DNA of 64,000 bases, taken from positions 3,596,001 to 3,660,000 of the forward strand of contig NZ_CP017990.1 of NCBI RefSeq assembly GCF_002208095.1, written 5' to 3'. This stretch comes from Enterobacter cloacae complex sp. ECNIH7. GTDB taxonomy: Bacteria > Pseudomonadota > Gammaproteobacteria > Enterobacterales > Enterobacteriaceae. Below the pieces are notes generated by a model. That model was not told the DNA's origin. It worked only from the letters and a program-made list of their open reading frames with translations, and did not search any database. The position numbers and the translations under genes were made by a program. Positions 25,765-31,600 of this stretch are shown one piece after another (position 1 is the first letter of the stretch; each line of letters starts with the position of its first letter).

Positions 25765-26121
25765 ATGACAGACGCCGTAAAAATTTATCACAACCCTCGC
25801 TGCTCCAAGAGCCGCGATACCCTGAGCCTGCTGAAGTCTAACGGCGTTGAGCCGGAAGTGGTGCTGTACCTCGACACCCCACCTGACGCGCAAACCCTCC
25901 GCCAGCTGCTGCACATGCTGGGAATGGGCAGTGCAAGAGAGCTGATGCGCCAGAAAGAAGATCTGTATAAGTCGCTTAACCTGGATGACAGCCGCCTCAC
26001 CGAGGCTGAGCTGATCCAGGCGATGGTTGAAAATCCAAAGCTGATTGAGCGCCCGATTGTGGTGGCGAACGGCCAGGCGCGCATTGGACGCCCGCCGGAA
26101 GACGTGCTCGAGATCCTCTAG
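25765..26121 (+). CDS. yfgD: Arsenate-reductase-like protein YfgD
   Basis: 118-residue ArsC-fold protein. The N-terminal YHNPRCSKSRDTLSLL has the catalytic-type Cys13 with the CX5R-like arrangement (CSKSRDT), and RPIVV near residue 95 is the typical ArsC region. A glutathione/glutaredoxin-dependent arsenate reductase activity is plausible, but there is no ars operon here and the native role is unknown. GGAG precedes the ATG. Its TAG stop shares the CTAG palindrome with the stop of the convergent gene that follows. Confidence 0.9.
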   Translation: MTDAVKIYHNPRCSKSRDTLSLLKSNGVEPEVVLYLDTPPDAQTLRQLLHMLGMGSARELMRQKEDLYKSLNLDDSRLTEAELIQAMVENPKLIERPIVVANGQARIGRPPEDVLEIL

Positions 26122-26942
26122 TTCTTATGCCGCAGCGCTTCCAGAAAGGCCTGCGGCGTACTCTCTCCCAGCTTTTTCTGCGCTTTTCCCCGGTTGTAAA
26201 ATTCGCACAGCTGGATCAACAGTTCGCCTGCCGGTTCACTGTTCAGACGTGGGATGATTTCACATAGCGGCAGAGCAACCTGAACGGCGCGGTACTGCTG
26301 CGGATGCGCTGTCACGGTGGTATTACGCTCCTCAAGCTTCACCTCAAAACCAAAAGTCTCAACAGATTGGATATCAGCCGGACAGGCTGCCAGCGCGTCG
26401 TTCGCCCAGTGGGCCAGCAGCTGCGGAGAAATGCCCGCGTACAGCCGGGCGTAGCACCAGCCGCTCACGGGTTCACGCGCCCACAGCAGATGCTGTTCCC
26501 CGCCATCGTCCATATGCAGCGACAGAGGCTGATGATGTAACAGGAGTTTTTGCGGCACGATGCCTGCCTTCAGCGCCTTTTTTCCCTGCAACGTCGCGCC
26601 CTTCTGCTTTACCGAAGCCGGTTTGAGATAGCGATTCAGGGTCGCGCGGGACACGGCGATCCCGAGTCCGCTATTGACCATCTGCAGCAGTTCGTCCAGC
26701 GGGGCGCCAGTGATATCCCGCAGGGCATTGACCAGCGCAACCTGCTCCTGTCTCAATGCTTTGTGTATCACTTTTGGCGTCGTATGGTTATCCGAAACCT
26801 GCTCGCGGTTGCGCCAGCGCCTGACGGTAGTGACCGAAATACCCAGCTCGGTAGCAAGCTCTCTGTCGCTTTTATCTGACTGCTGAAGATAGCGACGGAT
26901 GCGCGGCGTCGTGGTTGCATTAGCATGCAGTTTAATTTCCAT
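26118..26942 (-). CDS. Transposase-derived HTH protein (IS481-like, catalytic residues lost)
   Basis: 274 residues. The N-terminus HANATTTPRIRRYLQQSDKS plus a helix-turn-helix (about 24-46, RELATELGISVTTVRRWRNR) and the following region (PLDELL, VSRATLNRYL) resemble the DNA-binding half of IS481-family transposases. The rest keeps the outline of the integrase core: HMDD with a first Asp, GWCYARLYAG in place of WVYLEIYAD, and a C-terminal CEFYNRGKAQKKLGESTPQA. The second Asp (DNG motif) and the Glu are missing, so transposition is unlikely. It faces the EIIC-asparaginase-aminopeptidase operon. A domesticated regulator is my inference. Confidence 0.7.
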   Translation of the reverse strand: MEIKLHANATTTPRIRRYLQQSDKSDRELATELGISVTTVRRWRNREQVSDNHTTPKVIHKALRQEQVALVNALRDITGAPLDELLQMVNSGLGIAVSRATLNRYLKPASVKQKGATLQGKKALKAGIVPQKLLLHHQPLSLHMDDGGEQHLLWAREPVSGWCYARLYAGISPQLLAHWANDALAACPADIQSVETFGFEVKLEERNTTVTAHPQQYRAVQVALPLCEIIPRLNSEPAGELLIQLCEFYNRGKAQKKLGESTPQAFLEALRHKN

Positions 26943-26959
26943 CGCAGGATCCTCAGAAC

Positions 26960-26968
26960 CAATCTTGT
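26960..26968. repeat. Direct repeat copy 1, CAATCTTGT
   Basis: CAATCTTGT occurs here and again at 27068-27076, close to the two ends of the 146-bp divergent region between the transposase-like gene and the EIIC gene. It could be an operator half-site. A 9-base exact match within this region is suggestive only. Confidence 0.3.
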
Positions 26969-26996
26969 GAGATTTATACTACAACAGCGATTGCTT

Positions 26997-27012
26997 TGTG
27001 ACCGATTTCACC
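26997..27012 (+). promoter_or_regulatory. CRP site upstream of the EIIC operon
   Basis: TGTGA-CCGATT-TCACC matches nine of ten conserved CRP positions (TGTGA-N6-TCACA). Its centre is 84 bases before the EIIC start codon, a position suited to activation. It implies carbon-catabolite control of the operon, as expected for a nutrient-uptake system. Confidence 0.65.
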
Positions 27013-27067
27013 TTTCGCTCGCCACGCTTCACTGATAATCCCCAGACATAACACAAACAACACCCCT

Positions 27068-27076
27068 CAATCTTGT
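27068..27076. repeat. Direct repeat copy 2, CAATCTTGT
   Basis: Second exact copy of CAATCTTGT, directly before the GGAG ribosome binding site of the EIIC gene. Binding here could block transcription or translation initiation. Confidence 0.3.
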
Positions 27077-27088
27077 ACGGAGTTCACA

Positions 27089-28408
27089 ATGAACAATGTT
27101 CTGGGATTTCTTGAAGCAAAACTGATGCCGCTGGCGGCCAAAACGGCCCAGCAGCGCCATCTCGGGGCCATTCGCGGCGCCTACGTGTCATTCATGCCGT
27201 TTATCATCGTCGGCTCTATTCTGCTGGTGATCTCTTCGTTCCCGAATCAAGCCTATCAGCAGTTTATGTCTCAGGCCTTTGGTGAGAGCTGGAGCGCCAT
27301 TATTGAAATCCCGTTCAACGCGGTGTTCTCCACCATGTCGCTGTTCATCAGCTTCCTGGTCGCCTTCCGCCTGGCGGAACACTATGACGAGGATCGCATC
27401 TCCTGCGGCATCCTGGCGCTGGTCGCCTTTCTCATCCTGACACCCTTTATCAAAGTGGCGGAAAACGGCGGTATCACCGTCATTCCGGTGGAGTGGATTG
27501 GCAGCAAAGGGCTGTTCGTGGCGATGATCGGTTCCCTGCTGTGGACGGAGCTGTTCTGCTGGCTCAAGCGCAAAAAGCTGGTGATCAAAATGCCGGACGG
27601 CGTGCCTCCGGCGGTGCAGGAGTCGTTCGCCGCGCTGATCCCGGCCCTGCTGGTAATGATTCTGGTGCTGGGTATCCGCATCGTGTTTGAAAACACCCAC
27701 TACAACACCATCCACCAGTTTATTTACGAAGTGGTTGCCACGCCGGTGCGCCACTACGGCACCTCTTACTTTGGCGCGCTGATGACGGTGTTCAGCATCA
27801 CCATTCTGTGGTCAGTGGGCATTAACTCCGGCTCGATGATCAACGGCATCATTCGCCCACTGTGGATGGAGAACCAGACCGACAACATCGCCGCGATTCA
27901 GGCAGGCGCGACGCCGCCGCACATTATTACTGAACAGTTTTTTGACATGATCTGGATGGGCGGCGCGGGGGCCACGCTGTCGCTGGTGATTGCGATGCTG
28001 ATTTTCGCCCGCAGCAAAAACATGCGTGAAGTGGCGCGCCTCGGCGCCGGGGCATCGGTGTTTAACATCAACGAACCGATCCTGTTTGGCCTGCCGGTGA
28101 TCATGAACCCGATCATGCTCATCCCGTTCAACCTGGTGCCGCTGGTGCTGGTCACCGTGCAGTATGCGGCGATGAAGATTGGCGCGGTTGCCGTCACCAC
28201 CGGGGTGTTTATTCCCTGGACGCTGCCGCCGGTCATCAGCGGTTTTATCGTTACCGGACACCTGAGCGGCAGCGTCATGCAGCTTATCAACCTGCTGATT
28301 GGCGCCATGCTGTATCTGCCTTTTATGCGTATCGTGGACAAACAGTACCGCGCGGCGGAAATGGCCACCGTTACGCAAACCGACACCACCCTTGCAAAAC
28401 AGGAGTAA
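27089..28408 (+). CDS. PTS EIIC permease, cellobiose/chitobiose type (orphan)
   Basis: 439-residue membrane protein of the lactose/cellobiose-family EIIC group. About ten hydrophobic segments are seen. MPDGVPPAVQESFAALIPA lies at residues 168-186, and the family signature FNINEPILFGLPVIMNP at 325-341 holds Glu329. The motif where I expect a conserved GIHG reads GINSGS (residues 244-249), so Asn246 stands where His is usual. No EIIA or EIIB gene is nearby, so either partners act in trans or transport does not need phosphorylation. GGAG precedes the ATG. The asparaginase gene follows 3 bases after the stop. Confidence 0.88.
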   Translation: MNNVLGFLEAKLMPLAAKTAQQRHLGAIRGAYVSFMPFIIVGSILLVISSFPNQAYQQFMSQAFGESWSAIIEIPFNAVFSTMSLFISFLVAFRLAEHYDEDRISCGILALVAFLILTPFIKVAENGGITVIPVEWIGSKGLFVAMIGSLLWTELFCWLKRKKLVIKMPDGVPPAVQESFAALIPALLVMILVLGIRIVFENTHYNTIHQFIYEVVATPVRHYGTSYFGALMTVFSITILWSVGINSGSMINGIIRPLWMENQTDNIAAIQAGATPPHIITEQFFDMIWMGGAGATLSLVIAMLIFARSKNMREVARLGAGASVFNINEPILFGLPVIMNPIMLIPFNLVPLVLVTVQYAAMKIGAVAVTTGVFIPWTLPPVISGFIVTGHLSGSVMQLINLLIGAMLYLPFMRIVDKQYRAAEMATVTQTDTTLAKQE

Positions 28409-28411
28409 AGC

Positions 28412-29368
28412 ATGTGGGGAATTATCGCGACCTGGAGAATGGCGCTTGAAGGCGTTACGGAATCTGCGTCAGCGCTGGCTGCGGGTAAACCGGTCTCTGC
28501 AGCGGTGGTGGATGCCGTCGCCGCCGTCGAAGACTTTCCGTTTTATAAATCCGTCGGCTACGGCGGGCTGCCCACCGAAAATGGCGAAGTGGAGCTGGAC
28601 GCCGCCTACATGGACGGCGATACGCTGGCGTTTGGCGCCGTGGGCAACCTGGTGGATATCGCCAACCCGGTGCGCGTGGCGCATGCGTTAAGCCGTCAGC
28701 GCTACAACAGCCTGCTTGTCGGCCAGGGCGCGCGGGAATGGGCGCTGAGCCAGGGCTTCGCCGACAAAACCATGCTCACCGAGCGCGCCATGCAGCACTA
28801 CCGCAAACGCTGCCGCGAGACGCTGGATAAGGGCTTAAGCCCTTACGACGGGCATGACACCGTCGGCATTATCGGACTCGATAAACAAGGGTCAATGAGC
28901 GTCGCCACCTCCACCAGCGGCCTGTTCATGAAGAAACGTGGTCGACTCGGGGATTCGCCCATTATTGGTTCCGGATTTTACTGCGACAGTGAAACCGGCG
29001 CCGCCACCGCCACGGGCGTCGGTGAAGATCTGATGAAAGGCTGCACCAGCTACGAAATTGTCCGCCGAATGGCGCAGGGTATGACGCCGCAGCAGGCGGC
29101 GGATTCAGTGGTGTTCGAGCTGGAGGACAAGCTGATGTCGCGCTTTGGCCGTGCGGGCGATCTTTCCGTGGTGTGCATGAACAAGAGAGGCGAGTTCGGG
29201 GCCGCCACCAACATCAAAACGTTCTCGTTTGTGGTGGCGACGGCTCGCCAGCCCCTCACCGTTTTTCGTACCGAACGCCTGCGGGAGAAAACGCATTATT
29301 ACGCCGTAGACGATGAGTGGATGCAGGCCTATGCCGCGCGGATCCGCGCGCCGATTGAGGAATCATGA
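28412..29368 (+). CDS. N4-(beta-N-acetylglucosaminyl)-L-asparaginase (Ntn hydrolase)
   Basis: 318 residues. It matches the glycosylasparaginase family: SVGYGGLPTENGEVELDAAY and MDGDTLAFGAVG in the N-terminal half, HDTVGIIGLD at 148-157 with nucleophile Thr150, and the substrate-binding RLGDSPIIGSGFY. Such enzymes self-cleave before this Thr (D149-T150) into alpha and beta chains and split GlcNAc-Asn into aspartate and amino-sugar. There is no signal peptide, so it should act in the cytoplasm on imported substrate. It starts just after the EIIC gene and overlaps the aminopeptidase start (ATGA), which marks an operon. Confidence 0.88.
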   Translation: MWGIIATWRMALEGVTESASALAAGKPVSAAVVDAVAAVEDFPFYKSVGYGGLPTENGEVELDAAYMDGDTLAFGAVGNLVDIANPVRVAHALSRQRYNSLLVGQGAREWALSQGFADKTMLTERAMQHYRKRCRETLDKGLSPYDGHDTVGIIGLDKQGSMSVATSTSGLFMKKRGRLGDSPIIGSGFYCDSETGAATATGVGEDLMKGCTSYEIVRRMAQGMTPQQAADSVVFELEDKLMSRFGRAGDLSVVCMNKRGEFGAATNIKTFSFVVATARQPLTVFRTERLREKTHYYAVDDEWMQAYAARIRAPIEES

Positions 29369-30789
29369 TGATTACATATCAGTTTATCAACGCGCTTTCT
29401 GACGCGGCTCCGCAAAGCCATTTTATTGCGTCCACCTCCTGTTCGCATTTACCCGAAACGGCGCTTGTCGCGGAAATGCGCGAGTCTGCCAGCATCGCTG
29501 ACACCCGCTTTGGCTGCGCCCCGTTTGCCCGGATCACCCTGCTGCCGGATGCCCACTGGCAGGATAGCCTGACCGAAGGATTGCTGACGGCGCTGCGCCC
29601 GCTGCTGGCCTCGCCCGTCAGCCCCGAGCTGATACTGGACGTTACTGCTATCGACGATGTGGTGCTGGCGCAGGTGCTGCGCTTTCTCTTTAATCAGGCG
29701 CACAGGCTGAGCGACCTCAAGCTAAAGAAAACGGATGAATCGACGGTGCGCCTTACGCACATCACCGCCCTCTGCCTGCCGGAACAGCAGGCAAAACTGG
29801 AGGGGGTCTTCCGCCAGCAGCAGGCCATCGCCCAGGGCATGATCGCGGCGCGACGGCTGGCGGATATCCCGTCGGACCAATGCACGCCGCAGTTTGTGGT
29901 GGAAGAGGCGCAAAGGCACTGTGCCGCCTTCCCCGCCCTGCGCTGCGAAGTGCTGAACGAAAAGGCTATTGCTGAGCAGGGTCTGGGGCTGCTGCAGGCC
30001 GTTGGCAAAGGGGCGACCTGTCCGCCGCGCCTGCTGGCTATTCATTATGACGGCGTCAACGACGGCCCGGTGCGCTGCTATGTGGGTAAAGGCATTACCT
30101 TCGATACCGGAGGCCTGTGGCTGAAGGAAGGCGCGGGCATGTACACCATGAAATACGACATGTGCGGTGCGGCTAACGTGCTGGGCCTGATGCTGACCGT
30201 CGCAGAGCTGGCGCTGCCCGTGCGCATCATGGGCGTGCTGGCGCTGGCGGAAAACGCCATCGGCCCGGACGCCATGCAGCCCGGCACGGTAGCGACGGCC
30301 TGCAACGGCACCACGGTTGAAATCAACAACACCGATGCCGAAGGCCGACTGGTGCTGGCGGACGCCATCGCCTGGGCCAGCCAGCGCCATCCGCAGGCGC
30401 GCTATATTATTGATATGGCGACCTTAACCGGCGCGGTCGTGAAGGCGCTGGGGTATGAATTGAGCGGATTAATGACGCAGGATGAACCGCTGCGCGCGGC
30501 GCTGACGCTGGCGGGCAAGCAGAGCGGCGATGAAGTGTGGTCCCTGCCGCTGGATGCGCGGCTGAAAAAACAGACCGACAGCGCCATCGCCGATCTGTGC
30601 AACACGCCGACCAACAATGCGGCGATCAGCGCCTCGGCGGCGTGGCTGCTGCACCACTTTTGCCCGCCGACGATCCCGTGGGCGCATCTGGATATCAGCG
30701 GTACGGCGCTGTGGCGCGAAAACGGACGGAGCGTGGCGTCGGGGAGACCAATTCCGCTTTTGGTTGAGCACTTGCTGGGGGATGTCTAA
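29365..30789 (+). CDS. M17-family leucyl aminopeptidase
   Basis: 474-residue cytoplasmic metallo-aminopeptidase. The catalytic domain carries the two-metal site: Lys242 and Asp247 in GKGITFDTGGLW, Asp265 in MKYDMCGAA, Asp324 and Glu326 in NNTDAEGRLVLADA, and Arg328. The N-terminal macro-like domain (about residues 1-150) is poorly conserved, as usual. The ATG overlaps the asparaginase stop, so translation is coupled. Its place suggests trimming of peptides released from, or attached to, glycosyl-asparagine. It is distinct from PepA and PepB, which lie elsewhere in E. coli. Confidence 0.87.
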   Translation: MMITYQFINALSDAAPQSHFIASTSCSHLPETALVAEMRESASIADTRFGCAPFARITLLPDAHWQDSLTEGLLTALRPLLASPVSPELILDVTAIDDVVLAQVLRFLFNQAHRLSDLKLKKTDESTVRLTHITALCLPEQQAKLEGVFRQQQAIAQGMIAARRLADIPSDQCTPQFVVEEAQRHCAAFPALRCEVLNEKAIAEQGLGLLQAVGKGATCPPRLLAIHYDGVNDGPVRCYVGKGITFDTGGLWLKEGAGMYTMKYDMCGAANVLGLMLTVAELALPVRIMGVLALAENAIGPDAMQPGTVATACNGTTVEINNTDAEGRLVLADAIAWASQRHPQARYIIDMATLTGAVVKALGYELSGLMTQDEPLRAALTLAGKQSGDEVWSLPLDARLKKQTDSAIADLCNTPTNNAAISASAAWLLHHFCPPTIPWAHLDISGTALWRENGRSVASGRPIPLLVEHLLGDV

Positions 30790-30834: not shown

Positions 30835-31536
30835 TCAAAGCTTGAGAATATCTTTCACAAACGGAATGGTCAGCTTGCGCTGGGCGGTAATGGAGGCGCG
30901 ATCGAGCTGATCGAGCGTGTCAAACAGCGTGCGCATTTCGCGATCCAGCCGCTTGAGCAGGAAGCGCCCCACGTCCTCCGGCAGCTCAAACCCGCGCTGC
31001 TTTGCGCGCAGCTGTAACGCCTGAAGCTTATCTTCATCCGACAGCGGCTGGAGCTTGTAGATTTGCCCCCAGTCCAGACGAGACGCCAGGTCCGGCAGCC
31101 CCAGATTGAGCTGTCTCGGCGGACGATCGCCGGTGATCAGCAGCCGGGTTTTGCCCGACTCCAGAATGCGGTTGTAGAGGTTAAAGATCGCCATTTCCCA
31201 CGGCTCGTCCCCCGCCACGCATTCGATATTATCGATGCAGACCAGCGAGAGATGTTCCATTCCCTCCAGCACCTCAGGTACGAACCAGGTGCGTTTATCC
31301 AGCGGCACGTAGCCTACCGCATCTCCGCGCGCGGAAAGCTCCGCGCAGGCGGCATGCAGCAGGTGGCTGCGCCCCGCGCCTTCGCGTGACCAGATATAGA
31401 TGTATCCGCTGTGATCCTGGCGCAGCACGTTTTGCAGTGCAGCCAGTAAAGAGGGGTTATCACCCGGCCAGAAACTCGCAAACGTTTCGTCGTCAGGGAG
31501 ATAGAGTGGCAGAGAGAGCTGTGCCGGTCCGTTCAG
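30835..31536 (-). CDS. hda: DnaA regulatory inactivator Hda
   Basis: AAA+ protein that binds the DNA-loaded sliding clamp and stimulates DnaA-ATP hydrolysis, preventing re-initiation. The N-terminal clamp-binding motif QLSLPL is at residues 6-11, and an ATPase fold follows ([19 protein letters not shown]). I chose the CTG at 31536 (then AAC GGA CCG), because E. coli Hda is reported to start at a CTG in this place and this gives 233 residues, the same length. GAGGT lies 4 bases before it. An in-frame ATG at 31560 is the alternative. Confidence 0.88.
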
Positions 31537-31600
31537 AAGTACCTCAACCAGATCTGACATAAAATCGGCATGGAGTTTAACACGGAACCTGCAAGGAGAG

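Follow-up and report, generated by a model that had tools for sequence, protein, structure and literature searches.

A candidate phosphotransferase-type operon for glycosylated asparagine in Enterobacter, with a predicted regulator derived from an IS481 transposase

In Enterobacter cloacae complex sp. ECNIH7, four genes located between yfgD and hda encode an enzyme IIC (EIIC) of the phosphotransferase system (PTS), a glycosylasparaginase (GA), a peptidase of the M17 family and, divergently, a helix-turn-helix (HTH) protein. They lie in a 64,000-nt stretch of contig NZ_CP017990.1 (positions 3,596,001-3,660,000, forward strand), which is the window throughout this text. On balance, we consider it probable that this locus serves the PTS uptake and cytoplasmic degradation of glycosylated asparagine, with N-acetylglucosamine (GlcNAc)-beta-Asn and short peptides bearing it as the likeliest substrates. 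The gene arrangement is not due to chance, since the same set is found in 31 of 31 further loci of the same family in which the GA is at least 64% identical. A first-pass annotation of the window had described the four genes and a tight operon, and both descriptions agree with the gene calls down to the coordinates (Table 1). EIIC is followed by a 3-base gap and GA, the GA and M17 genes are joined by an ATGA overlap, and the operon as judged from the open reading frames (27089-30789) diverges from the HTH gene. Likewise, family models support the families named for all four proteins.

The substrate would be the stub left on N-glycoproteins after the action of endoglycosidases and proteases. 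EIIC, together with EIIB and EIIA encoded elsewhere in the genome, would import the stub and phosphorylate its sugar at position 6. The M17 peptidase may act as an accessory enzyme that strips an N-terminal residue and thereby frees the alpha-amino group of Asn, which GA would require. GA would then cut the amide to yield aspartate and 1-amino-GlcNAc(-6-P), the latter opening to ammonia and GlcNAc(-6-P); amide cleavage of this kind is the established chemistry of the glycosylasparaginase family. NagA and NagB could feed the sugar into glycolysis, and aspartate could enter the tricarboxylic acid cycle. Transcription would depend on CRP and on the divergently encoded protein, a catalytically dead IS481 transposase predicted to bind a 19-bp site whose centre precedes the CRP site by about 35 bp. 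Cytoplasmic breakdown of glycosyl-asparagine, as the first-pass annotation had proposed it, stands as the best reading, and ChbF/ChbG, NagA/NagB or NagB-like genes adjoining the cluster in four relatives suggest GlcNAc as the sugar.

The GA carries an Asparaginase_2 N-terminal nucleophile (Ntn) hydrolase domain (211.4 bits, cut-off 27). Its top matches in the PDB are the glycosylasparaginases 1p4k and 9gaa (E 2.9e-55), compared to 8e-35 or weaker for asparaginase and isoaspartyl-peptidase structures. According to the alignment with 1p4k and 9gaa, the GA keeps W8, HDT at 148-150, GRLGDSP at 177, R178, D181 and ATG at 200-202 including T201-G202. Presumably, these residues provide the Asp-Thr autocleavage site and the substrate-binding Trp, Arg, Asp and Thr-Gly. 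The catalytic domain opens the protein at once (MWGIIATW) with no N-terminal extension, in line with the earlier statement that a signal peptide is lacking. The GA shares 50-61% identity with Bacillota GAs that are PTS-linked and 53% with the GA of an alf-2-like Bacillota cluster that also encodes a ROK kinase and an M20 peptidase (L294). The Ntn domain, the autocleavage site and the main substrate-binding residues are further shared with the Elizabethkingia and human glycosylasparaginase (aspartylglucosaminidase) in the alignment. The human enzyme is lysosomal. The Elizabethkingia enzyme is secreted according to the accessible part of PMC6960285, unlike the window GA. The accessible part of PMC11633334 holds nothing on the window GA, and the sole term match there is a different enzyme.

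The EIIC belongs to the lactose/cellobiose family (PTS_EIIC 202 bits, cut-off 30.7; TIGR00410 439.4 bits, cut-off 236) and bears an Asn in place of the conserved His of the GIHG motif. We take the replaced residue to be His250 of the chitobiose transporter bcChbC, where His250 and Glu334 presumably have catalytic roles and where, in the solved structure of the chitobiose EIIC, the His is presumably close to the C6 hydroxyl; a literature search on EIIC catalytic residues found no paper giving the residue roles of bcChbC. We aligned 140 distinct EIICs (loci L031-L270), of which 90 were called GA-linked and 50 unlinked with a distance limit of 5 kb. At the G(I/V/L)(H/N) motif, all 90 EIICs called GA-linked have Asn, whereas those called unlinked comprise 46 with His and four with Asn. 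Two of these four are in fact located in GA clusters, namely L110, which lies beyond the 5-kb limit, and L214 from the fragmented KNHs214 assembly, whose EIIC stands next to GrdB-like and M20 genes in L221. The true exceptions with Asn outside GA clusters are L227 and L252. Five additional Bacillota cluster EIICs, sampled after the pattern had been seen, all carry Asn. In total, Asn occupies this position in 97 of the 97 EIICs read from GA clusters, and His in 46 of the 48 remaining ones of the lactose/cellobiose type. The NINE motif retains its Glu in 16 of 16 EIICs. In a tree of 45 representative EIICs, the GA-linked ones fall into two clades with good support, one for each phylum, and a single clade is not rejected (approximately unbiased test, p 0.31). 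Hence, the Asn may be inherited or convergent. The clostridial EIICs of L227 (L270) and L252 read VNGT at this site and adjoin a protein of about 210 amino acids. In L005 and L174 (genome G134), the EIIC frame is in two pieces, which may reflect decay of the operon there or an assembly error.

The first-pass annotation had called the EIIC an orphan, which applies only to the reduced form of the operon, as in several genera EIIB and EIIA are still encoded within the operon. The order EIIC-GA-M17-EIIB-EIIA is found in 7/7 Hafnia-group loci (L074, L076-L081) and EIIC-GA-EIIB-EIIA in 4/4 Vibrionaceae loci, and EIIB alone is retained in four of five Buttiauxella loci. Because Hafnia-type relatives keep both partners, we regard the window EIIC as part of a reduced operon and not as a true orphan. 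The window genome encodes five EIICs, three EIIAs and nine EIIB-domain matches of any PTS type. Among them is an unlinked EIIB-EIIA pair without EIIC at 251407-252005 (L126 3887-4512), by eye between rpoC and thiH. The EIIB of this pair (at least 85% identity) is present in 66 of 295 same-family genomes and in 28 of the 32 GA genomes; the other four (G126, G228, G287, G171) have EIIB and EIIA in the operon. This distribution fits a borrowing of the unlinked pair by reduced operons, although the genera are related to each other.

The M17 protein matches Peptidase_M17 (PF00883, 343.4 bits, cut-off 25), contains NTDAEGRL, which we take to be the family signature, and falls under the cut-off of all 13 listed leucyl aminopeptidase and PepB equivalogs. 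GA neighbourhoods variously contain the non-homologous peptidases M17, M20 and M42, of which M20 and M42 occur with some GAs of Bacillota, and the presence of three unrelated peptidase families near GA suggests peptide-bearing substrates.

The recurrent linkage of these families, on which the original proposal depended, extends across Enterobacterales, Vibrionaceae and Endozoicomonas and, with other peptidases or none, to Bacillota. In the same-family set of 295 genomes, a GA orthologue (at least 64% identity) occurs in 32 genomes, each of which also has EIIC, M17 and the regulator. All 32 loci, i.e., the window and 31 others, were inspected along with one locus at 46%. Of the 31, 22 occupy the window's genomic site, bordered by bepA or yfgD and, in 21 cases, by hda at the opposite end; nine are elsewhere. 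A scan of named genomes in which the best 80 of 346 relatives were kept contained 71 gammaproteobacterial loci, of which 69 have the regulator and 67 have M17; one of the 71 (L085) is titled Chryseobacterium and reads as a Citrobacter-type contig. The remaining nine loci of these best 80 are clostridial, and in four of them, L103-L106 from a single fragmented genome, no EIIC is seen on the contig. For E. coli, megablast gave no match in 5,426 genomes, a search that homologues under about 85% identity would escape. A separate GA-PTS type of the same family is represented by L198 (1665-4933), in which a GA of 44-46% identity stands with a glucose/maltose-type EIICB, a NagB-like protein and, by eye, a LacI-type gene; the EIICB and the NagB-like protein are both under the NCBIfam equivalog cut-offs.

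Among 299 genomes of Bacillota (the phylum of G295), the GA subfamily (at least 57% identity, query genome included) is present in eight and four more have weak matches. The eight clusters comprise EIIC in six, EIIA in seven, EIIB in seven, a peptidase in three and CutC within about 5.5 kb in six. The gene order is GntR-M20-GA-EIIB-EIIC-EIIA on Enterococcus megaplasmids and GA-GntR-GrdB-like-EIIC-M20 in L. curvatus. In L288, CutC-NagA-NagB follow the PTS-GA operon (NagA 393 bits, cut-off 226; NagB 307 bits, cut-off 237), and L100 and L101 have ChbF-type GH4 and ChbG-like genes upstream of the cluster. CutC recurs in GA clusters (L107 10061-10735, L100, L101, L109, L288-L290, L292, L293, L092 8954-9694). 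In the Bacillota set, 27 genomes have CutC over the cut-off, i.e., eight of the eight GA genomes and 19 of the other 291 (p 1.5e-9 in a Fisher test that ignores relatedness). In genomes without GA, CutC also lies beside NagA or ROK-type kinases in some loci (L329, with NagA by model; L330, L333, L347, L351, by eye). The copper phenotype of cutC in E. coli is ascribed to the small RNA MicL. The accessible part of PMC8216713 places micL at cutC. We did not find the GA-CutC link described in a literature search that covered mostly papers outside subscription, and the association may give a clue to the metabolic role of CutC. In Bacillota clusters, a free-standing GrdB-like protein that lacks selenocysteine recurs beside EIIC, namely in L107 (7389-7907; NF041545 244 bits, cut-off 175), L100 (5062-5586), L101 (7376-7900) and L120 (10695-11219).

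The HTH protein apparently is a catalytically dead IS481 transposase reused as a regulator that is predicted to bind DNA. It matches HTH_3 (29.8 bits, cut-off 23) and resembles IS481, IS630 and IS21 transposases, all far under the cut-offs (43 bits versus 224 for the IS481 model NF033577). The first 107 residues are 33-47% identical between five regulators and four IS481 transposases, and the proteins are colinear in having an HTH followed by an integrase fold, which argues for common descent. The regulators differ in that the DDE triad is lost in 20/20 and a single copy is kept at one operon. Across 14 divergent regulators, 40 positions are invariant, and 38 of these fall within the N-terminal 107 residues. 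A profile of 14 regulators, with at most eight candidates scored per genome, gave a full-length match in exactly the 32 GA genomes of 295, one each; further matches were weak or partial (G158, G151, G248), that in G158 being an intact IS481 transposase. In the 32 GA genomes, the regulator is always a single copy without internal stops, and it is kept in two gene orders, divergent and at the 3' end of the operon. Candidates for a regulator outside its operon were rejected, since 7/7 class-wide matches examined (L359-L362, L364, L365, L369) are IS481-type transposases. An intact IS481-family transposase lies in L328 (5672-6577), by eye beside a beta-lactamase-like gene. No IS481-derived bacterial regulator was found in the literature, searched mostly without subscription papers.

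Upstream of EIIC, a conserved motif close to AATCATATGAGACTTATA forms the candidate operator. Its core is found in 78 of 82 distinct upstream regions of regulator-bearing loci (missing in L038, L088, L102, L182), in none of four GA loci without the regulator and in none of the 50 regions upstream of EIICs classed as unlinked; two of these 50 belong to clostridial clusters. Enterovibrio has its regulator gene at the 3' end, and operator copies there precede EIIC and, by 33 bp, the regulator gene. The operator has one exact match in its whole own genome; a wider regulon was rejected, as three further sites with two mismatches each compare to one site with a reversed-pattern control. The CRP-type site that the first-pass annotation had seen between the HTH gene and the operon is present. 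Among 22 regions examined, all have a TGTGA half-site at a fixed distance of 35-36 bp from the operator core, and 18 have NATAATC 37 bp from TGTGA (three lack a pattern match, one has it at 18). Up to the start codon, the interval ranges from 54 to 111 in the regions scored. At least eight of ten core bases of the CRP palindrome are kept in 15/15 regions of the window's group, and the palindrome is at that place in three of six aligned Vibrionaceae/Cedecea/Buttiauxella regions. With GATAAT as the -10 box, we infer that the CRP site would be centred at about -41.5 (class II spacing) and the operator at about -77, and this position of the operator suggests that the regulator is an activator. An origin of the operator from transposon ends was rejected, as the terminal repeats of the insertion sequence (IS) pairs L361/L384 and L362/L385 are unlike it by eye. 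Within the HTH gene, at 26348 of the minus strand, lies an operator-like sequence (CCAATCTGTTGAGACTTTT) of a kind present in the regulator coding sequence of nine of 13 divergent-type loci inspected; it probably reflects coding constraint and is possibly a second site.

Table 1. Genes and candidate control elements of the locus (window coordinates).
Feature	Position	Strand	Basis
yfgD	25765-26121	+	name from first-pass annotation and position
HTH gene, regulator candidate, 274 amino acids	26118-26942	-	apparent catalytically dead IS481-family transposase, HTH and integrase/RNase H fold
Operator candidate CAATCTTGTGAGATTTATA, 19 bp	26960-26978	+	motif conservation upstream of EIIC
CRP-type site TGTGACCGATTTCACC	26997-27012	+	palindrome/half-site conservation
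-10 box candidate GATAAT	27034-27039	+	spacing to TGTGA
PTS EIIC, lactose/cellobiose family, Asn for His	27089-28408	+	family models, alignments
GA, putative cytoplasmic glycosylasparaginase, Ntn hydrolase, nucleophile Thr150	28412-29368	+	Pfam, PDB matches, motifs
M17 leucyl-aminopeptidase-type peptidase, NTDAEGRL kept	29365-30789	+	Pfam, signature
hda	30835-31560	-	name from first-pass annotation and position

Several observations weigh against the proposed pathway. The window operon contains no EIIA or EIIB gene, and the unlinked pair is an uncertain partner of EIIC because the operator is missing from its promoter. Moreover, 38 genomes have the unlinked EIIB and no GA (a search for EIIB only). 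Measured against Vibrionaceae EIIB, the unlinked and the cel-type EIIB have similar scores, both higher than that of chb, and measured against Vibrionaceae EIIA, the chb, cel-type and unlinked EIIAs are about level; these scores do not clearly favour the unlinked pair. The His-to-Asn exchange, at the presumed C6-hydroxyl site, could mean that phosphorylation is altered or lost. GA-family enzymes also cut beta-aspartyl peptides. Neither M17, M20 nor M42 matches in 4/4 Vibrionaceae loci, and five of the eight sampled Bacillota clusters have no peptidase match; we take the peptidase as accessory because its gene is so often missing. Similarly, pepV is dispensable for growth of L. casei on 6'FN-Asn according to the accessible part of PMC6960285. 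Neighbours of the Nag or Chb type are few (L100, L101, L288, L198), the second CRP half-site is lost from most Hafnia-group promoters, with the palindrome at its place in only two of six regions (L078, L079), and the co-occurrence counts ignore the relatedness of the genomes.

How far do these points favour other explanations? Glucosyl-Asn, chitobiosyl-Asn (GlcNAc2-Asn) or another N-glycosyl-asparagine could be handled by the same machinery instead. Among the equivalog models, the EIIC exceeds the cut-off for cellobiose (439.4 versus 434.45 bits) and stays under that for the chitobiose ChbC, NF007634 (222 versus 760), EIICs of the lactose/cellobiose family presumably carry mostly disaccharides, and a GH1-type gene adjoins the cluster in L108 by eye. 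However, the NagA/NagB, NagB-like and ChbF/ChbG neighbours in four relatives favour GlcNAc, and a chitobiosyl substrate would seem to need a glycosidase, for which the window operon has no gene, so that we regard another sugar as rather unlikely. Less likely still, the EIIC of Enterobacter and other reduced operons might be a permease that no longer phosphorylates after the loss of EIIA and EIIB, as the incomplete operon and the Asn in all cluster EIICs read would allow. The same Asn is present where the operon retains both proteins (Vibrionaceae, Hafnia group, Clostridia), and we therefore rejected it as a sign of lost phosphorylation; in addition, every GA genome has an EIIB either unlinked or with EIIA in the operon.

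If the GA were instead a beta-aspartyl (isoaspartyl) peptidase working beside the aminopeptidase, the locus would scavenge peptides and the EIIC would be incidental. A distant match to the beta-aspartyl-peptidase model, the side activity presumed for the family, the aminopeptidase in the tight operon and a Dpp-like ATP-binding cassette transporter upstream in L092 and L108 (by eye) could be read in this way. The GA is not IaaA (113.8 bits on the equivalog NF007589, cut-off 567), its best structural matches are glycosylasparaginases, and GA occurs together with a sugar PTS in two phyla, PTS genes being absent from 3/3 inspected loci of weak-class GAs outside the subfamily (31-36% identical to the window's), all of which makes peptide scavenging decidedly improbable. 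Finally, the full-length homology of the HTH protein to IS481 transposases would also be expected of a decaying IS remnant without a function here. Its intact single copies, the invariant positions concentrated at the N-terminus, the matching operator and its retention in two gene orders leave this explanation barely credible. Uptake and degradation of GlcNAc-Asn remains the reading we prefer. We would call it speculative, and on the whole doubtful, that all of the following hold at once: a PTS for GlcNAc-6-P-Asn stubs in Gammaproteobacteria and Bacillota marked by the His-to-Asn exchange in EIIC, gammaproteobacterial control by an IS481-derived, CRP-partnered activator, and a CutC that handles the glycosylamine (phosphate) made by GA or another amino-sugar phosphate.

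No characterised bacterial system with this gene set had been known to the first-pass annotation. We likewise found no description of the operon, which is weak evidence of novelty given a search mostly without subscription papers; a glycosyl-asparagine pathway as such has been characterised, however, in the form of L. casei alf-2 for fucosyl-GlcNAc-Asn (AlfH, AlfC, AsnA2, PepV, SugK; Becerra, 2020; PMC6960285). It was the only characterised bacterial pathway for N-glycan stubs found in the same search. The accessible part of that article describes AsnA2 as an intracellular glycosylasparaginase with demonstrated activity on GlcNAc-Asn and notes the instability of 1-amino-GlcNAc at acid pH, and the legend of Figure 7 spells out PTS among the abbreviations for drawn gene neighbourhoods (PMC6960285). 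AsnA2 is the closest tested enzyme found and, judged from its description, is related to the window GA. As far as that text describes it, alf-2 resembles the window locus in an intracellular glycosylasparaginase without signal peptide, a linked peptidase gene and a glycoamino acid as carbon source. It differs in a major facilitator superfamily permease (AlfH) and a fucosidase (AlfC) instead of a PTS, in SugK phosphorylating free GlcNAc, in a GntR regulator and in an M20 instead of an M17 peptidase; AlfH, AlfC and SugK are not among the window-locus genes. Latilactobacillus and Enterococcus megaplasmid clusters with GA, EIIC and Sapep dipeptidase (L119-L121, from record annotation) share GA, the lactose/cellobiose-type EIIC and a peptidase, but have a GntR regulator, an M20 peptidase and, in L. 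curvatus, the GrdB-like protein. The chitobiose operon chbBCARFG (own copy L122) shares a PTS of the lactose/cellobiose family for a GlcNAc compound, whereas ChbC keeps the His and a glycosidase and a deacetylase take the place of GA and peptidase; its regulator ChbR is AraC-type.

Judged from the genes, the window locus is a PTS variant of an alf-2-type pathway plus a putative exapted-transposase regulator for which no precedent was found. Asparagine-bound N-glycan stubs are a plausible food in the gut, in food and in other protein-rich settings, and the locus would add a phosphotransferase route to their use that can be recognised in genomes by the residue mark in EIIC. Moreover, the regulator seems a clear example of how a bacterial transposase became a dedicated transcription factor, and its operator is predicted.

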